64,000 nucleotides of DNA from NCBI RefSeq assembly GCF_000185805.1, contig NC_014926.1:1296501-1360500 (forward strand), in the 5' to 3' direction. Source of the DNA: Thermovibrio ammonificans HB-1. Its GTDB lineage: Bacteria; Aquificota; Aquificia; Desulfurobacteriales; Desulfurobacteriaceae. Every line of letters begins with the position of its first letter. The first letter of the stretch is position 1. Shown one piece after another: positions 8,987 to 13,114 of the stretch. The notes beneath the pieces are model-generated. The model saw nothing but the letters and a program-made list of their open reading frames with translations, did no database searches and had not been told where the DNA came from. Made by a program: the position numbers and the translations under genes.

Positions 8987-9637
8987 ATGGTGAAGGAGTT
9001 TCTCAGACAGCTGCCGCTCTTTTCAAAGCTCACAGAGAGGCAACTGGAGGAGCTCTCCCGAATTGCGGTAAGCAGAAAGTTCAACAAGGGAGAGGTGATA
9101 TTCCATCCCTCCCAAAAGGCCGACGCCTTCTTCATACTTAAATCGGGCAGAGTAAAAATATTCAAAACCTCCAAGGGAAAAGAGCAGATTTTAAGGATAT
9201 TCGAACCTCCCATAATCTTTGGCGAAGCGGCAAGCTTCACCGGAGGCTACTTCCCCGCCTGGGCAGAAGCCGTTGAGGAGTCGGAAGTACTAACAATTCC
9301 CCGAAACCAGATGCTCAACCTCCTGAAGAAAGACCCGGAAGTGGGAATGAAACTACTGGCGGTTATGGCCCAGAGGTTGATTCACCTTACAAACGTTATA
9401 GAGAGCCTCTCGCTCAAAAGCGCCCTATCGAAAGTCGCAAGCTACCTCTACAGGAGAATGGAGGAAGAGGGAGAGAGCTTCAAATTCAGCACAACAACCG
9501 CCTCCCTCGAGCTGGGCCTTACAAAAGAGACCGTTTCCCGGATGCTCGGGAAACTGAAATCCCTCGGGGTTGTGGAGAAAAACGGAAGCACCGTAACAGT
9601 TAAAAAACCTAACGCTTTAAAAGACCTGGCCTCCTAA
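8987..9637 (+). CDS. Crp/Fnr-family transcription regulator without cysteines
   Basis: A 216-residue cyclic-nucleotide-binding-fold sensor (about 1-120), dimer helix (about 120-145) and winged HTH. The recognition helix reads LTKETVSRMLGK with E181, S184 and R185, the residue pattern FNR uses to contact TTGA half-sites. There is no cysteine at all, so it cannot hold an FNR-type [4Fe-4S] cluster; a heme- or ligand-sensing DNR/CooA-like mode is open. It ends the hisD operon, converging on a YgbA_NO gene, and a TTGAC-N4-GTCAA palindrome lies at the nearby cooS promoter, a likely target. Confidence 0.9.
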   Translation: MVKEFLRQLPLFSKLTERQLEELSRIAVSRKFNKGEVIFHPSQKADAFFILKSGRVKIFKTSKGKEQILRIFEPPIIFGEAASFTGGYFPAWAEAVEESEVLTIPRNQMLNLLKKDPEVGMKLLAVMAQRLIHLTNVIESLSLKSALSKVASYLYRRMEEEGESFKFSTTTASLELGLTKETVSRMLGKLKSLGVVEKNGSTVTVKKPNALKDLAS

Positions 9638-9938
9638 AGCGCTCCTTAATCTCATGACGGAGCCAGCCAAAGGGGTCGTAAATAAGCAGCCTGGGACCGC
9701 TAAAGCGCATAACCTCCTTAACCTTGCGCCGCATATTCGGAGAGTAACAGTGAACCGGACACTTCTTACAGGTGGGCTTTTCCTCACCGAAAGGGCACAA
9801 GTCGAGCCTCTTAAAGGCGTAGTTCAGTAGCTTCTCACACTCGGGACACAGCTCTCCCCGCCTGCTGCCGTGGCGCCTCCAACAGTAAATCTCAACCATA
9901 CGGCGAATAGTCTCCTTCTCACGCTCAATAACCGACAT
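9609..9938 (-). CDS. YgbA_NO family protein (nitrosative-stress associated)
   Basis: A 109-residue Cys-rich protein: MSVIEREKETIRRMVEIYC, then CPECEKLL, LCPFGEEKPTCKKCPVHCYSP and a C-terminal PFGWLRHEI. This matches the nitrous-oxide-stimulated promoter family typified by E. coli YgbA, an NsrR-controlled gene induced by NO. The conserved cysteines may bind a metal or Fe-S cluster. Its 3' end overlaps the convergent Crp/Fnr gene by 29 bases. It is transcribed in the same direction as cooS, but a terminator lies between them. Confidence 0.85.
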   Translation of the reverse strand: MSVIEREKETIRRMVEIYCWRRHGSRRGELCPECEKLLNYAFKRLDLCPFGEEKPTCKKCPVHCYSPNMRRKVKEVMRFSGPRLLIYDPFGWLRHEIKERFRRPGLLKR

Positions 9939-9949
9939 GCTCTACCCCT

Positions 9950-9985
9950 AAAGGTAAAAATAAAAGGGCCCTCCCGAAGGAGGGC
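9950..9985 (-). terminator. Rho-independent terminator of cooS
   Basis: On the minus strand GCCCTCC-TTCG-GGAGGGC (9968-9985) is followed by CCTTTTATTTTTA. A seven-pair GC-rich stem on a UUCG tetraloop with a T-rich tail is a strong intrinsic terminator, lying 50 bases past the cooS stop. Confidence 0.85.
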
Positions 9986-10034: not shown

Positions 10035-11990
10035 TTATATGCCAAGAAGCTCCCTCTTCTTCATAATGTGCTCCTCTATGCCGTCTGCAGCCTGAACCGG
10101 GTCGTCTCCAACTGCAATCTTACCGCCGGTAAGAGCCTCAACCTCCTCGGTAAGAAGCTTAACAACCTTATCGGAACCCGTAACCGGAGGAACGGGAGAA
10201 ACGTGGGTGTAAAGCCCCATTGCAACCGCAGAGAAACCGTCGATAACGGCCTTCTGCTCCATATACTCAGGAGCGGTAACCGCAACCGGAAGCTGAGAGG
10301 GGTCAACCCTCAAGGCGTTTGCAATCGCAACAACGGTCATAATAATCCTCCCCGTGTCGGTACAGGTTCCGAAAGACAGAACGGGAGGAATACCGAGGGC
10401 CTTGCACACGCTTGCAAGCCTTGGACCGGCGTATTTATCTACAGCTTCCAAAGTTTCAAGGCCGGCCTTCTGAAGGCCCGCGTTACCGCAACCTGCACCT
10501 ATAACGAGGATATCCCTCTTGATAAGCTCCTTGGCAATCTGAACGGTCATGCTGTCCTGAGGACCGTTACCGAGGGAAGTACAGTTAACCAGAGCGACAA
10601 CCCCCTTAATGTCTCCGCTCTTAATAACCTCAAGCAGCGGGTCGAGGGTACCGCCAAGGGCTTCAACTATCGCTTCGGCAGAAAAGCCCACTATTGCATT
10701 CTGCTTAAAGCGGGAAACATCGGCCTTTTGAACCTCCTTACGCTCCTTAAAGTTCTCTATGGCCAGCTTAATAATCTCTTCAGCAACCTTAGCCTCGTTA
10801 CCGGGCTTATACTCAAGCCTTATAGAGCCCGGAACCCCTATAATGTTAGACACTGCAATAAGCTTGAAGCGGTACTTATCGGCGTACTCCTTAAGGTTTG
10901 CAAGGGAGCAGTTCATATCCATAACAAAGGCGTCAACTGCACCGGTAGAGAGGAAGTACTCGATTGAAATCCAGTTGGAAGTTAAACCCGGGAAAACATC
11001 GCCACACTCAAGGCGGGCCATCATCTCCTGACCGGTCTCAATAGAGCCGACAATCCTTATCCCCTTAGCGCCGGCCTCCCTCGCCATCTGCTGGAACTTC
11101 TCATCCTGAGCGAGCTTCACAAGGGCCATTCCGACAAAAGGCTCGTGACCGTTGGGCAGAATGTTAACGTAGTCAGGGTCGAGAACGCCGAAATCAACGG
11201 TACACTGGTGGGGAGAAGGCGTACCGTAGAGAGCGTCCTGAATCATCTCCAGGGGAACGAGAGCACCAAAAGCAGAAGCCACACCGTTCCTGAGGGCTGC
11301 AAGGGCAAGAGTTACGTAGTCGCCGTCTATGTTGGTCATAGAGCGGGTAACAGAGTCAACGAGCTCGTTCATCGGCCCTTTTGGCATAATGCCCAGCTTC
11401 CTGAACACCTCCTTCCTGCTCTCGGGTGCCAACTTCTCAACGAAAACAGAAGTGTCGTTCTGAGAGAGGCTCTTCAAAACACCCTCGGCCACAGCCTCGG
11501 CCTTCTTGTCAAGAGGCAAGTTGGGGTCTACGCCCAAAACCTGCGCAAGGGCATCGATTTTGGCCGGGTCTTTAATCTCGTAAACGGTGTTGCCCCTTGC
11601 AGTTTCAAGTAGCGTAAGAGCAGCTTCCCTACAGTGGTAAGTGTAGGCGGCAAGGCCCATATTCGCCTTGATGAGGAGGTTCCTCATAACAATACCGTGA
11701 GCGTCTATACCGCAAACTCCCCTGGGGGTCTGCGGAGTTATACGGCACGGTCCCATTGAACAGAGCTGACACGAAACCCCTTCCTTACAGAACTTACACC
11801 TGACCTTCTCCATTGCCTCAAAACGGTCTGCAACGTTCGAGAGGCCCGCCTCCTTTACCTGCTTGTACATGTAGTTAACGCTCTCGTGGAAAGAGGGCAT
11901 CTTGATTCCTACCCCTTTGGCAAGGTCGGACTCAACGCAGAAGTTCTCCTCCTTCTTACCCCCGTTCCCTTTCTTAAAGAACCCAAACAT
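10035..11990 (-). CDS. cooS: Ni-CO dehydrogenase catalytic subunit homologue with an altered C-cluster site
   Basis: A 651-residue CooS-family protein. ATG at 11990 (MFGFFKKG) is chosen because AAGGAGG precedes it; an in-frame start at 12056 has no such site. B/D-cluster cysteines are C65, C68, C74, C77, C82 and C93. C-cluster candidates are H282, C361, C470, C501 and C543, with acid-base Lys580 in YMEQKAV. The segment that normally reads CCTGNE reads SIETGQE, so Glu318 replaces a usual ligand cysteine. CooS interconverts CO and CO2 via ferredoxin, but that change leaves activity uncertain. No acetyl-CoA synthase or cooC/cooF is nearby. Neighbours are a divergent nifX-like gene and a downstream YgbA homologue. 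Confidence 0.9.
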   Translation of the reverse strand: MFGFFKKGNGGKKEENFCVESDLAKGVGIKMPSFHESVNYMYKQVKEAGLSNVADRFEAMEKVRCKFCKEGVSCQLCSMGPCRITPQTPRGVCGIDAHGIVMRNLLIKANMGLAAYTYHCREAALTLLETARGNTVYEIKDPAKIDALAQVLGVDPNLPLDKKAEAVAEGVLKSLSQNDTSVFVEKLAPESRKEVFRKLGIMPKGPMNELVDSVTRSMTNIDGDYVTLALAALRNGVASAFGALVPLEMIQDALYGTPSPHQCTVDFGVLDPDYVNILPNGHEPFVGMALVKLAQDEKFQQMAREAGAKGIRIVGSIETGQEMMARLECGDVFPGLTSNWISIEYFLSTGAVDAFVMDMNCSLANLKEYADKYRFKLIAVSNIIGVPGSIRLEYKPGNEAKVAEEIIKLAIENFKERKEVQKADVSRFKQNAIVGFSAEAIVEALGGTLDPLLEVIKSGDIKGVVALVNCTSLGNGPQDSMTVQIAKELIKRDILVIGAGCGNAGLQKAGLETLEAVDKYAGPRLASVCKALGIPPVLSFGTCTDTGRIIMTVVAIANALRVDPSQLPVAVTAPEYMEQKAVIDGFSAVAMGLYTHVSPVPPVTGSDKVVKLLTEEVEALTGGKIAVGDDPVQAADGIEEHIMKKRELLGI

Positions 11991-12021: not shown

Positions 12022-12063
12022 ATGTTACCCTCGGCAAGTTGAAAAAGGTTTGACATTCGTCAA
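12022..12063 (-). promoter_or_regulatory. FNR/CRP-type operator and putative cooS promoter
   Basis: TTGAC-ATTC-GTCAA at 12050-12063 is a perfect 5-base inverted repeat with FNR/DNR geometry (TTGA-N6-TCAA). On the minus strand a weak -10 box TAACAT lies at 12022-12027, predicting transcription from about 12015. The palindrome centre is then 41.5 bases upstream, the class II activator position. The remaining cooS-nifX intergenic DNA (11991-12170) is AT-rich; a TATATT at about 12126 could serve nifX. Confidence 0.65.
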
Positions 12064-12170: not shown

Positions 12171-12542
12171 ATGAAAGTGGCAGCTCCCGTACTGGAAACA
12201 GAGGTAAAGGGAAAAAGGCTTATTAACGCTCACTTCGGCAAATCGAGCCTGTTTGCCGTTGTCGATACCGACTCCAACGCCGTTGAAATCGTTGAAAACC
12301 CCGGCCTTCACGTTCAGAGGGGAAGGGGAATCTACATAGCCCAAATGTTCAAGGAAAAGGGAGTAGAAGCCGTCCTTGTAAAGGAGATGGGTCCGGGAGC
12401 ATTCGACAAAATAAGAAACGGCTTGGGTATAAAGGTCTACCTCGTACCGGAAGAGGTTAAGTTCTTAGACGAAGCATTAGAGCTATTTAAGAAAGGAGAG
12501 CTTCCGGAGCTCACCGAGCCCAACGAGGAGGAGCACAGATGA
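12171..12542 (+). CDS. NifX/NifB-type iron-molybdenum-cofactor-binding domain protein
   Basis: A 123-residue single-domain protein of the dinitrogenase FeMo-cofactor family (NifX/NafY/VnfX fold): MKVAAPVLE at the start, HFGKSSLFAVVD near residue 25, and the end AVLVKEMGPGAFDKI leading to a C-terminal acidic tail. Members bind metal-sulfur clusters or precursors, often outside nitrogen fixation. It follows AAGGAGGAT and overlaps the DUF1847 gene by four bases. Divergence from cooS suggests a role in handling the NiFeS cluster, which is inference. Confidence 0.85.
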   Translation: MKVAAPVLETEVKGKRLINAHFGKSSLFAVVDTDSNAVEIVENPGLHVQRGRGIYIAQMFKEKGVEAVLVKEMGPGAFDKIRNGLGIKVYLVPEEVKFLDEALELFKKGELPELTEPNEEEHR

Positions 12543-13114
12543 AGTGCCACAACTGCAACTCCCCCGACTGTTACAGGGGAGGCAAAGTGTGTGCCCCCGG
12601 AGGCGAAGAGCTCCTCAGGAGCTTAACTCCCGCCGAGGAGCAGATGCTCAAAGTGGCATCAGACGTTGAGCGGGAATTCTACTGCAAACTTACACGTGTT
12701 GAAGAGCTCATAGAGTTCTCACGGCGAATGGGGTTTAAAAAAATCGGCGTGGCCTTCTGCATAGGGCTCTTTGAAGAGACCAGAGTGCTGGTAGAATACC
12801 TGGAAAAGGCCGGGTTCAGCGTTTTTTCTGCAGCCTGCAAAGTTGGAGCCGTAGATAAATCCCTCCTAAAAATCGAGAAGATGAGACCCGACTCCTTAGA
12901 AGCCACGTGCAACCCGGTGCTTCAGGCCCAGGCTCTAAACAGAGCAGGAACGGAGCTGAACGTGATAGTCGGGCTCTGCATAGGTCACGACATCATCTTC
13001 CAGAACCACTCCAAGGCACCCACAACAACGCTGATAGTTAAAGACAGGGTCCTTGCCCACAACCCGGCGGGAGCCATATACAGCAACTACTACAAGAGGA
13101 GACTCGGAGGTTAA
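12539..13114 (+). CDS. DUF1847 domain protein
   Basis: A 191-residue protein with an N-terminal metal-site cluster C3, C6, C11 and C17 (MKCHNCNSPDCYRGGKVC), then a domain with KKIGVAFCIGLFEE, CKVGAVDK, ATCNPVLQAQALN and VGLCIGHDIIF. This motif series is that of DUF1847, an uncharacterised family of anaerobes. Eight or more conserved cysteines suggest a metal or Fe-S function. It is coupled to the nifX-like gene, so the two probably act together. Confidence 0.85.
   Translation: MKCHNCNSPDCYRGGKVCAPGGEELLRSLTPAEEQMLKVASDVEREFYCKLTRVEELIEFSRRMGFKKIGVAFCIGLFEETRVLVEYLEKAGFSVFSAACKVGAVDKSLLKIEKMRPDSLEATCNPVLQAQALNRAGTELNVIVGLCIGHDIIFQNHSKAPTTTLIVKDRVLAHNPAGAIYSNYYKRRLGG

Follow-up and report, generated by a model that had tools for sequence, protein, structure and literature searches.

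Does the only CODH-like gene of Thermovibrio ammonificans encode an enzyme that interconverts CO and CO2, or a protein with a different cluster and a different task? The question is raised by one gene of the window, i.e. the whole stretch of 64,000 nt that was analysed:

10035–11990, minus strand: cooS (D-1 / CooS-V type), 651 aa, probably Theam_1337

Theam_1337 is the “type V CodH” of the 2017 eLife reconstruction of T. ammonificans metabolism, and it was detected in the proteome of nitrate-grown cells (PMC5441870). That study credited it with conserved NiFeS ligands and with a possible reduction of CO2 to CO (PMC5441870).

The coding sequence runs from 11990 to 10035 and begins with an ATG that has AAGGAGG just 5′ of it. 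In profile searches the product scored 492 bits against PF03063 and 787 bits, above the cut-off, against the CODH profile TIGR01702. The score against the HCP profile TIGR01703 was 54.8 bits, with a cut-off of 360.8, so that by sequence the protein is no HCP. The closest solved structure was 7b7q (674 bits, HMMER), i.e. the CooS-V of C. hydrogenoformans (CooS-V Ch), with an identity of 53% over 611 residues. The initial annotation of this locus had proposed a structure prediction. The AlphaFold model, which was computed from an alignment of the product's own relatives, has a pLDDT of 83, and its best fold matches are CooS-V (7b9a/7b7q, TM 0.93, rmsd 1.7), followed by true CODHs (TM about 0.9).

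The following active-site positions were assigned by alignment, with the equivalents in characterised proteins in parentheses:

11025–11045, minus strand: motif SIETGQE, residues 316–322, where CODHs have CCTGNE
11037–11039, minus strand: Glu318, codon GAG, CTC on the plus strand (CODH-II C295, CooS-V E295)
11145–11147, minus strand: His282 (CooS-V H259)
10908–10913, minus strand: Asn360-Cys361 (CooS-V N337, C338)
10581–10583, minus strand: Cys470 (CooS-V C449)
10488–10490, minus strand: Cys501 (CooS-V C480)
10362–10364, minus strand: Cys543 (CooS-V C521, persulfide-forming)
10257–10259, minus strand: Glu578, second HCP-like ligand (CooS-V E556, HCP E494)
11712–11798, minus strand: D-cluster Cys65/Cys68 (type III) and B-cluster Cys74/77/82/93

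The initial annotation had placed Glu318 at the position of the second C-cluster cysteine, C295, and had listed H282, C361, C470, C501, C543 and K580 as present. Both statements were borne out. In the HMMER alignments, E318 lies opposite the second Cys of CCTGNE in the solved canonical CODHs and opposite Glu295 in the GSIESGQE motif of 7b7q, and all of the listed residues were found. One Cys of the canonical C-cluster set (five Cys and one His) is thus replaced by Glu318. Two residues had been missed, namely E578 and C68. E578 is part of YMEQKA, which aligns with W(Y/M)EQKA of HCP, and the canonical-type CODHs of Desulfurobacteriaceae carry Thr in this column. C65 and C68 correspond to C38 and C41 of the CooS-V D-cluster, and C68 is a second mark of the CooS-V subclade. 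The position of the acid-base His is occupied by Tyr118, and the Lys563 equivalent is kept as K580. The alignment showed that all cluster ligands of CooS-V Ch, including the D- and B-cluster cysteines, are conserved. In the sequence alignment the HCP Glu268-type ligand falls at column 322 and not at 318, a four-residue ambiguity; the equivalence of the E318-type Glu and HCP Glu268 comes from a published structural superposition (PMC9311411).

Two other accounts of the Glu were rejected. A frameshift or sequencing error, which had already been discounted on the basis of the codon, is ruled out by the confirmed GAG and by the presence of Glu in all 47 D-1 rows of the alignment. The suggestion that C329 might be the substitute ligand, which had been named beforehand as an objection to the reading of Glu318, also fails, as Cys is found at this column in 29 of the 47 D-1 rows and is confined to most Desulfurobacteriaceae; elsewhere among these rows the residue is P, I, K, L, V, T or M.

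A survey of the clades that share the Glu had also been proposed. The 47 rows, which include some duplicate records of the same genome, come from Aquificota, Bacillota, Nitrospirota and Archaea. In a tree of 38 sequences, the Glu-bearing rows, including CooS-V Ch, formed one clade with one change (support 99/98). The same tree contained a separate CODH-like group from the Aquificota families f3 and f4 (L083–L096, L098), sister to the Glu clade. Its members retain the acid-base His and the full set of five C-cluster Cys (GSLCTGQE), but Lys563 is replaced by Asp (YYNNDA) and the second D-cluster residue is Gly. This combination of residues is missing from the structural groups in the table of Inoue et al. 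(PMC6344411).

The exchange of Cys for Glu is a published trait, and the residue itself is not novel. Structural group D-1 was defined by this Glu in combination with a D-cluster of type III, a Tyr where the acid-base His would be, and conservation of the Lys; HCP-like properties were predicted for the group (Inoue et al. 2019, PMC6344411). We found no structural difference between this group and the T. ammonificans protein. The crystals of CooS-V Ch (7B7Q, 7B7T, 7B95, 7B97, 7B9A; Jeoung et al. 2022) contain a Ni-free [4Fe-3S-nO] cluster that rearranges with the redox state, and the protein has a redox-gated channel (PMC9311411). It catalyses neither CO oxidation nor CO2 reduction, is a slow NH2OH reductase (kcat 0.13 s−1), and shows NO reduction not above background (PMC9311411). 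Compared with HCP its potentials are lower by about 300 mV, which led the authors to infer a different function (PMC9311411). The C295E variant of CODH-II, as cited in PMC9311411 and PMC6344411, is Ni-deficient and has lost CO activity, and its NH2OH reductase activity is raised.

The T. ammonificans protein shares with CooS-V Ch the fold, the ligands including E295 and E556, the D-cluster Cys41 and the B-cluster motif. It differs in the B4 spacing (CX10C versus CX12C) and in the additional C18, C120, C263 and C329, which are common only in Desulfurobacteriaceae. With canonical Ni,Fe-CODHs (CODH-II, AcsA, CooS) it has in common the fold, the B-cluster, five of the six C-cluster ligands and Lys563. 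In contrast, it has Glu for Cys295, Glu for another residue at 578, and Tyr for the acid-base His. The Glu/Glu/His/Cys ligand set (E268 by the published superposition, E494) is HCP-like, whereas the CODH-type dimer with its bridging D-cluster is not; the low potentials and slow NH2OH turnover of CooS-V Ch are further differences from HCP. The product is therefore, with high confidence, of the CooS-V/D-1 type, with a CODH fold, a Ni-free hybrid cluster and no CO/CO2 interconversion, the hybrid cluster itself being expected by analogy with CooS-V Ch. The initial expectation that an altered C-cluster may change the metal content or the reaction is supported by this 53% identical protein, for which both changes have been shown.

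What else could handle CO or reactive nitrogen in this organism? A PF03063 search of the T. ammonificans genome identified cooS as the sole member, and no other CODH or HCP was found. In this respect T. ammonificans differs from the host of CooS-V Ch, which has HCP and several true CODHs. We extended the inventory to 22 genomes of Desulfurobacteriaceae. The D-1 gene is present in all of them and is the sole prismane-family member in 20, while two (G123, G129) have a second, canonical-type CODH (GMCCTGLE). ACS (PF03598) was found in none of the 22 genomes, including that of T. ammonificans. CooS-V relatives have been said to occur only alongside a second CODH (PMC9311411); this is not general, because most Desulfurobacteriaceae carry the D-1 gene alone.

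The surroundings of cooS are as follows:

9609–9938, minus strand: ygbA, directly downstream of cooS, YgbA_NO family, 109 aa (PF11756, 131 bits; NF007714)
8987–9637, plus strand: Crp/Fnr-family regulator, convergent with ygbA (HTH_Crp_2 match)
9968–9985, minus strand: terminator-like hairpin between cooS and ygbA (the count of such sites is not above that in shuffles)
12171–12542, plus strand: NifX/Nitro_FeMo-Co family gene, divergent from cooS with a common intergenic region (profile match)
12539–13114, plus strand: DUF1847 gene, following the NifX-family gene (profile match)

Within the T. ammonificans genome HTH_Crp_2 has a single match above the cut-off, namely this regulator. The protein contains no Cys, which excludes an FNR-type 4Fe-4S cluster, and neither Cys nor His is conserved in it. 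Its recognition helix has the sequence ETVSR, which we take to resemble that of FNR, and its solved relatives include DNR. cooS, ygbA and crp occur together in all 22 Desulfurobacteriaceae genomes, with cooS adjoining ygbA in each of them; in genus g4 crp is co-directional with the other two. The NsrR regulon of Salmonella and E. coli comprises ygbA, which has no assigned function, as well as hcp, hmp and ytfE (PMC2884951; PMC1274295), and in Salmonella ygbA and hcp share one NO-responsive NsrR regulon (PMC2884951). The ygbA–crp context and the promoter box described below are absent from the description of D-1 by Inoue et al. (2019). Linkage to ygbA was not found for the D-1 genes of archaea, Bacillota and Nitrospirota, and the D-1 genes of the Aquificota family f5 are also without ygbA. 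In the latter family, FNR-like palindromes are present upstream of cooS, mostly with mismatches and at other distances. The pair of NifX-like and DUF1847 genes (12171–13114), the intergenic region of which contains the box and is shared with cooS, is widely conserved in Desulfurobacteriaceae.

Two promoter elements were identified upstream of cooS:

12050–12063, minus strand: palindromic TTGACGAATGTCAA, an FNR/HcpR-type box that begins 73 nt before the cooS ATG and is kept in relatives
12022–12027, minus strand: −10-like TAACAT, 22 nt past the box

The pattern TTGAYnnnnRTCAA has 20 sites in the 206,512 bases of 19 family loci, with about 0.8 expected. Each locus has one box in the cooS promoter or, in two loci, ahead of a cupin gene that precedes cooS, and there is one extra site. 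In 17 of the 19 promoters a TANNNT hexamer begins at an offset of exactly 36 nt from the box start, and the mean match to TATAAT at this offset is 3.9 of 6, versus about 2 at most other offsets. As predicted from these sequences, the spacing is that of a promoter activated by Crp/Fnr in the class II manner, in which the centre of the box is at −41.5. Chance occurrence of the box is ruled out by its conservation and the fixed spacing across the family loci. The genus g4 loci with the cupin gene between box and cooS (L062, L073) have the order cupin–cooS–ygbA–crp, with the box before the cupin gene.

In the T. ammonificans genome alone the search yielded six sites, versus one for the reversed control pattern, which is weak by itself. 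One of the six is inside accC, one is between convergent genes, and one is inside a plasmid gene. Another copy lies upstream of a gene for an 85-aa ferredoxin (C2:1084573–1084827), and an exact TTGAY-N4-RTCAA precedes this gene in 10 of the 18 family genomes that have the ferredoxin. ygbA has no box of its own. A perfect palindrome, TTGATTTAAATCAA, was seen around 1501–1514 of L106 (C2:1589675), about 80 nt before a roadblock/LC7-like gene and, on the divergent side, next to a glycyl-tRNA synthetase alpha gene (names assigned by eye).

The box matches the motif of HcpR, wyTTGACnnnnGTCAArw, which was predicted in deltaproteobacteria and two cyanobacteria; the core targets of HcpR are hcp and the ferredoxin-like frdX (PMC1274295). 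The predicted cooS/ferredoxin regulon resembles this set, cooS taking the position of hcp. The box is probably recognised by the Crp/Fnr protein encoded next to ygbA. The box class is common to FNR-type O2/redox regulation, and NO is a putative signal.

Taken as a whole, we consider it likely that cooS encodes a hybrid-cluster CooS-V that stands in for HCP and acts on NO and/or hydroxylamine. With Glu in place of Cys295 (E318) and with E578, the active site would bind a redox-morphing, Ni-free [4Fe-3S-nO] cluster rather than a NiFe C-cluster. The trigger would be the appearance of reactive nitrogen species: a Crp/Fnr-type activator, probably encoded by the adjacent gene, would then recognise TTGAY-N4-RTCAA and switch on cooS, with ygbA alongside and, in many species, the ferredoxin gene elsewhere in the genome. 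For the reduction of NO and/or hydroxylamine, CooS would draw on low-potential electrons. These compounds would likely stem from nitrate ammonification by Nap and an octahaem HAO-type cytochrome without NrfA. That activator-induced CooS substitutes for HCP in this reduction, in T. ammonificans as in all Desulfurobacteriaceae, is rather probable. The cellular substrate and the identity and signal of the regulator are inferred. In other anaerobes, cooS genes that may belong to other structural groups are responsive to NO or to nitrosative/oxidative stress.

Several observations count against a substitute for HCP. CooS-V Ch is slow with NH2OH, shows no activity above background with NO, and has potentials far below those of HCP. 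The D-1 protein of M. acetivorans may share in CO oxidation, according to a genetic study cited by Inoue et al. (PMC6344411). The hairpin at 9985–9968 lies between cooS and ygbA, making their co-transcription putative. Outside Desulfurobacteriaceae the contexts of D-1 genes are diverse and without ygbA. The lack of conserved Cys or His in the regulator and the FNR-type character of the box also belong here, as does the nitrate proteome, for which no contrasting condition is apparent in PMC5441870.

A narrower form of the HCP-substitute reading would make CooS-V the terminal hydroxylamine reductase of a reverse-HURM nitrate ammonification, consisting of Nap, an octahaem HAO-type cytochrome and CooS-V, like Hcp in Nautilia. 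In T. ammonificans, for which napCMADGH has been listed (PMC5441870), the gene for an octahaem HAO-type cytochrome with eight CxxCH motifs (L174:4812–8758; C2:381311–385257) lies directly upstream of the nap operon; it is followed by two genes for TPR-like proteins and then napC, napM and napA (nap genes recognised by eye). NrfA is absent from the genome. The reverse-HURM set of Nap and octahaem cytochrome without NrfA is thus present while Hcp/Har is absent, and CooS-V is the only prismane-superfamily candidate for a hydroxylamine reductase. As there is no HCP, hydroxylamine or NO would most obviously be handled by CooS-V. For Nautilia, such a set of enzymes was proposed to convert nitrite to hydroxylamine, which Hcp would then reduce (PMC3701875), and the expression of CooS on nitrate (PMC5441870) is compatible with a comparable pathway here. 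The HAO-type Pfam family occurs in 21 of the 22 family genomes, a match by one Pfam family with predicted HAO function. Octahaem HAO-type enzymes may also yield ammonium directly (PMC3701875), the 2017 reconstruction left the nitrite reductase open and named a NirA candidate, Theam_1000 (PMC5441870), and the turnover of NH2OH by CooS-V Ch seems too low to sustain respiration. We regard this narrower form as possible but rather unlikely.

It is unlikely, but compatible with a hybrid cluster, that CooS is a sensor of redox state or oxidative stress, or a scavenger of another small molecule, and not the NO/hydroxylamine reductase of the cell. Such a role would fit CooS-V Ch, whose channel is redox-gated, whose potentials are low and which turns NH2OH over very slowly; redox sensing was suggested by the 2026 survey (PMC13056359), and C. 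difficile cooS is under sigmaB control along with oxidative-stress genes. Redox-type neighbours were seen by eye at two nearly identical archaeal D-1 loci (L165, L166; G332, G382): both start with a small protein resembling a ferredoxin-thioredoxin reductase subunit, which in L165, where the contig reaches further, is preceded by flavodiiron-like and rubrerythrin-like proteins. Against this role, the ygbA partner, the HcpR-like box, the co-regulation with ferredoxin and the lack of HCP fit a catalytic substitute for HCP better.

The 2017 proposal for T. ammonificans, in which CooS would be a working type V CODH making CO from CO2 as a relic of a reductive acetyl-CoA pathway, is very improbable. 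The CODH annotation with its TIGR01702 score above the cut-off, the published statement of conserved NiFeS ligands and expression (PMC5441870), and the M. acetivorans genetics, as cited, speak for it. Against it, Glu replaces the Cys that ligates Fe1, CooS-V Ch, whose ligands are identical, and CODH-II C295E both lack Ni and CO activity, none of the 22 family genomes has ACS, and the promoter and neighbours point elsewhere.

What is new here is the genomic and regulatory evidence for a role with reactive nitrogen and the correction of the published CODH reading. As judged from the alignments, the statement that Theam_1337 conserves the NiFeS ligands does not hold. The CO2-reducing role, and with it the ancestral hybrid carbon-fixation pathway in Aquificota, was partly built on this statement, and the role is further contradicted by cooS being the only prismane-family gene and by the lack of ACS. 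The inference of CO2 reduction is to be withdrawn for this gene; two relatives do have a canonical-type CODH. There is about an even chance that the following two statements hold together: that in Desulfurobacteriaceae a CODH-derived hybrid-cluster protein replaced HCP as inducible NO/hydroxylamine reductase, with a Crp/Fnr activator, ygbA, ferredoxin and possibly the last step of nitrate ammonification, and that the “CODH” of T. ammonificans carries no weight as an argument for an acetyl-CoA pathway ancestral in Aquificota. The physiological role of D-1/CooS-V proteins is an open question; a 2026 survey of gene contexts left clade D aside after seeing no clear pattern among its neighbours (PMC13056359). 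In T. ammonificans the conserved surroundings of cooS point to coping with reactive nitrogen compounds. Desulfurobacteriaceae are a lineage in which this role is directly testable, because the D-1 gene is mostly the sole prismane gene, ygbA and the Crp/Fnr gene are constant companions, and the activator-type promoter is conserved.
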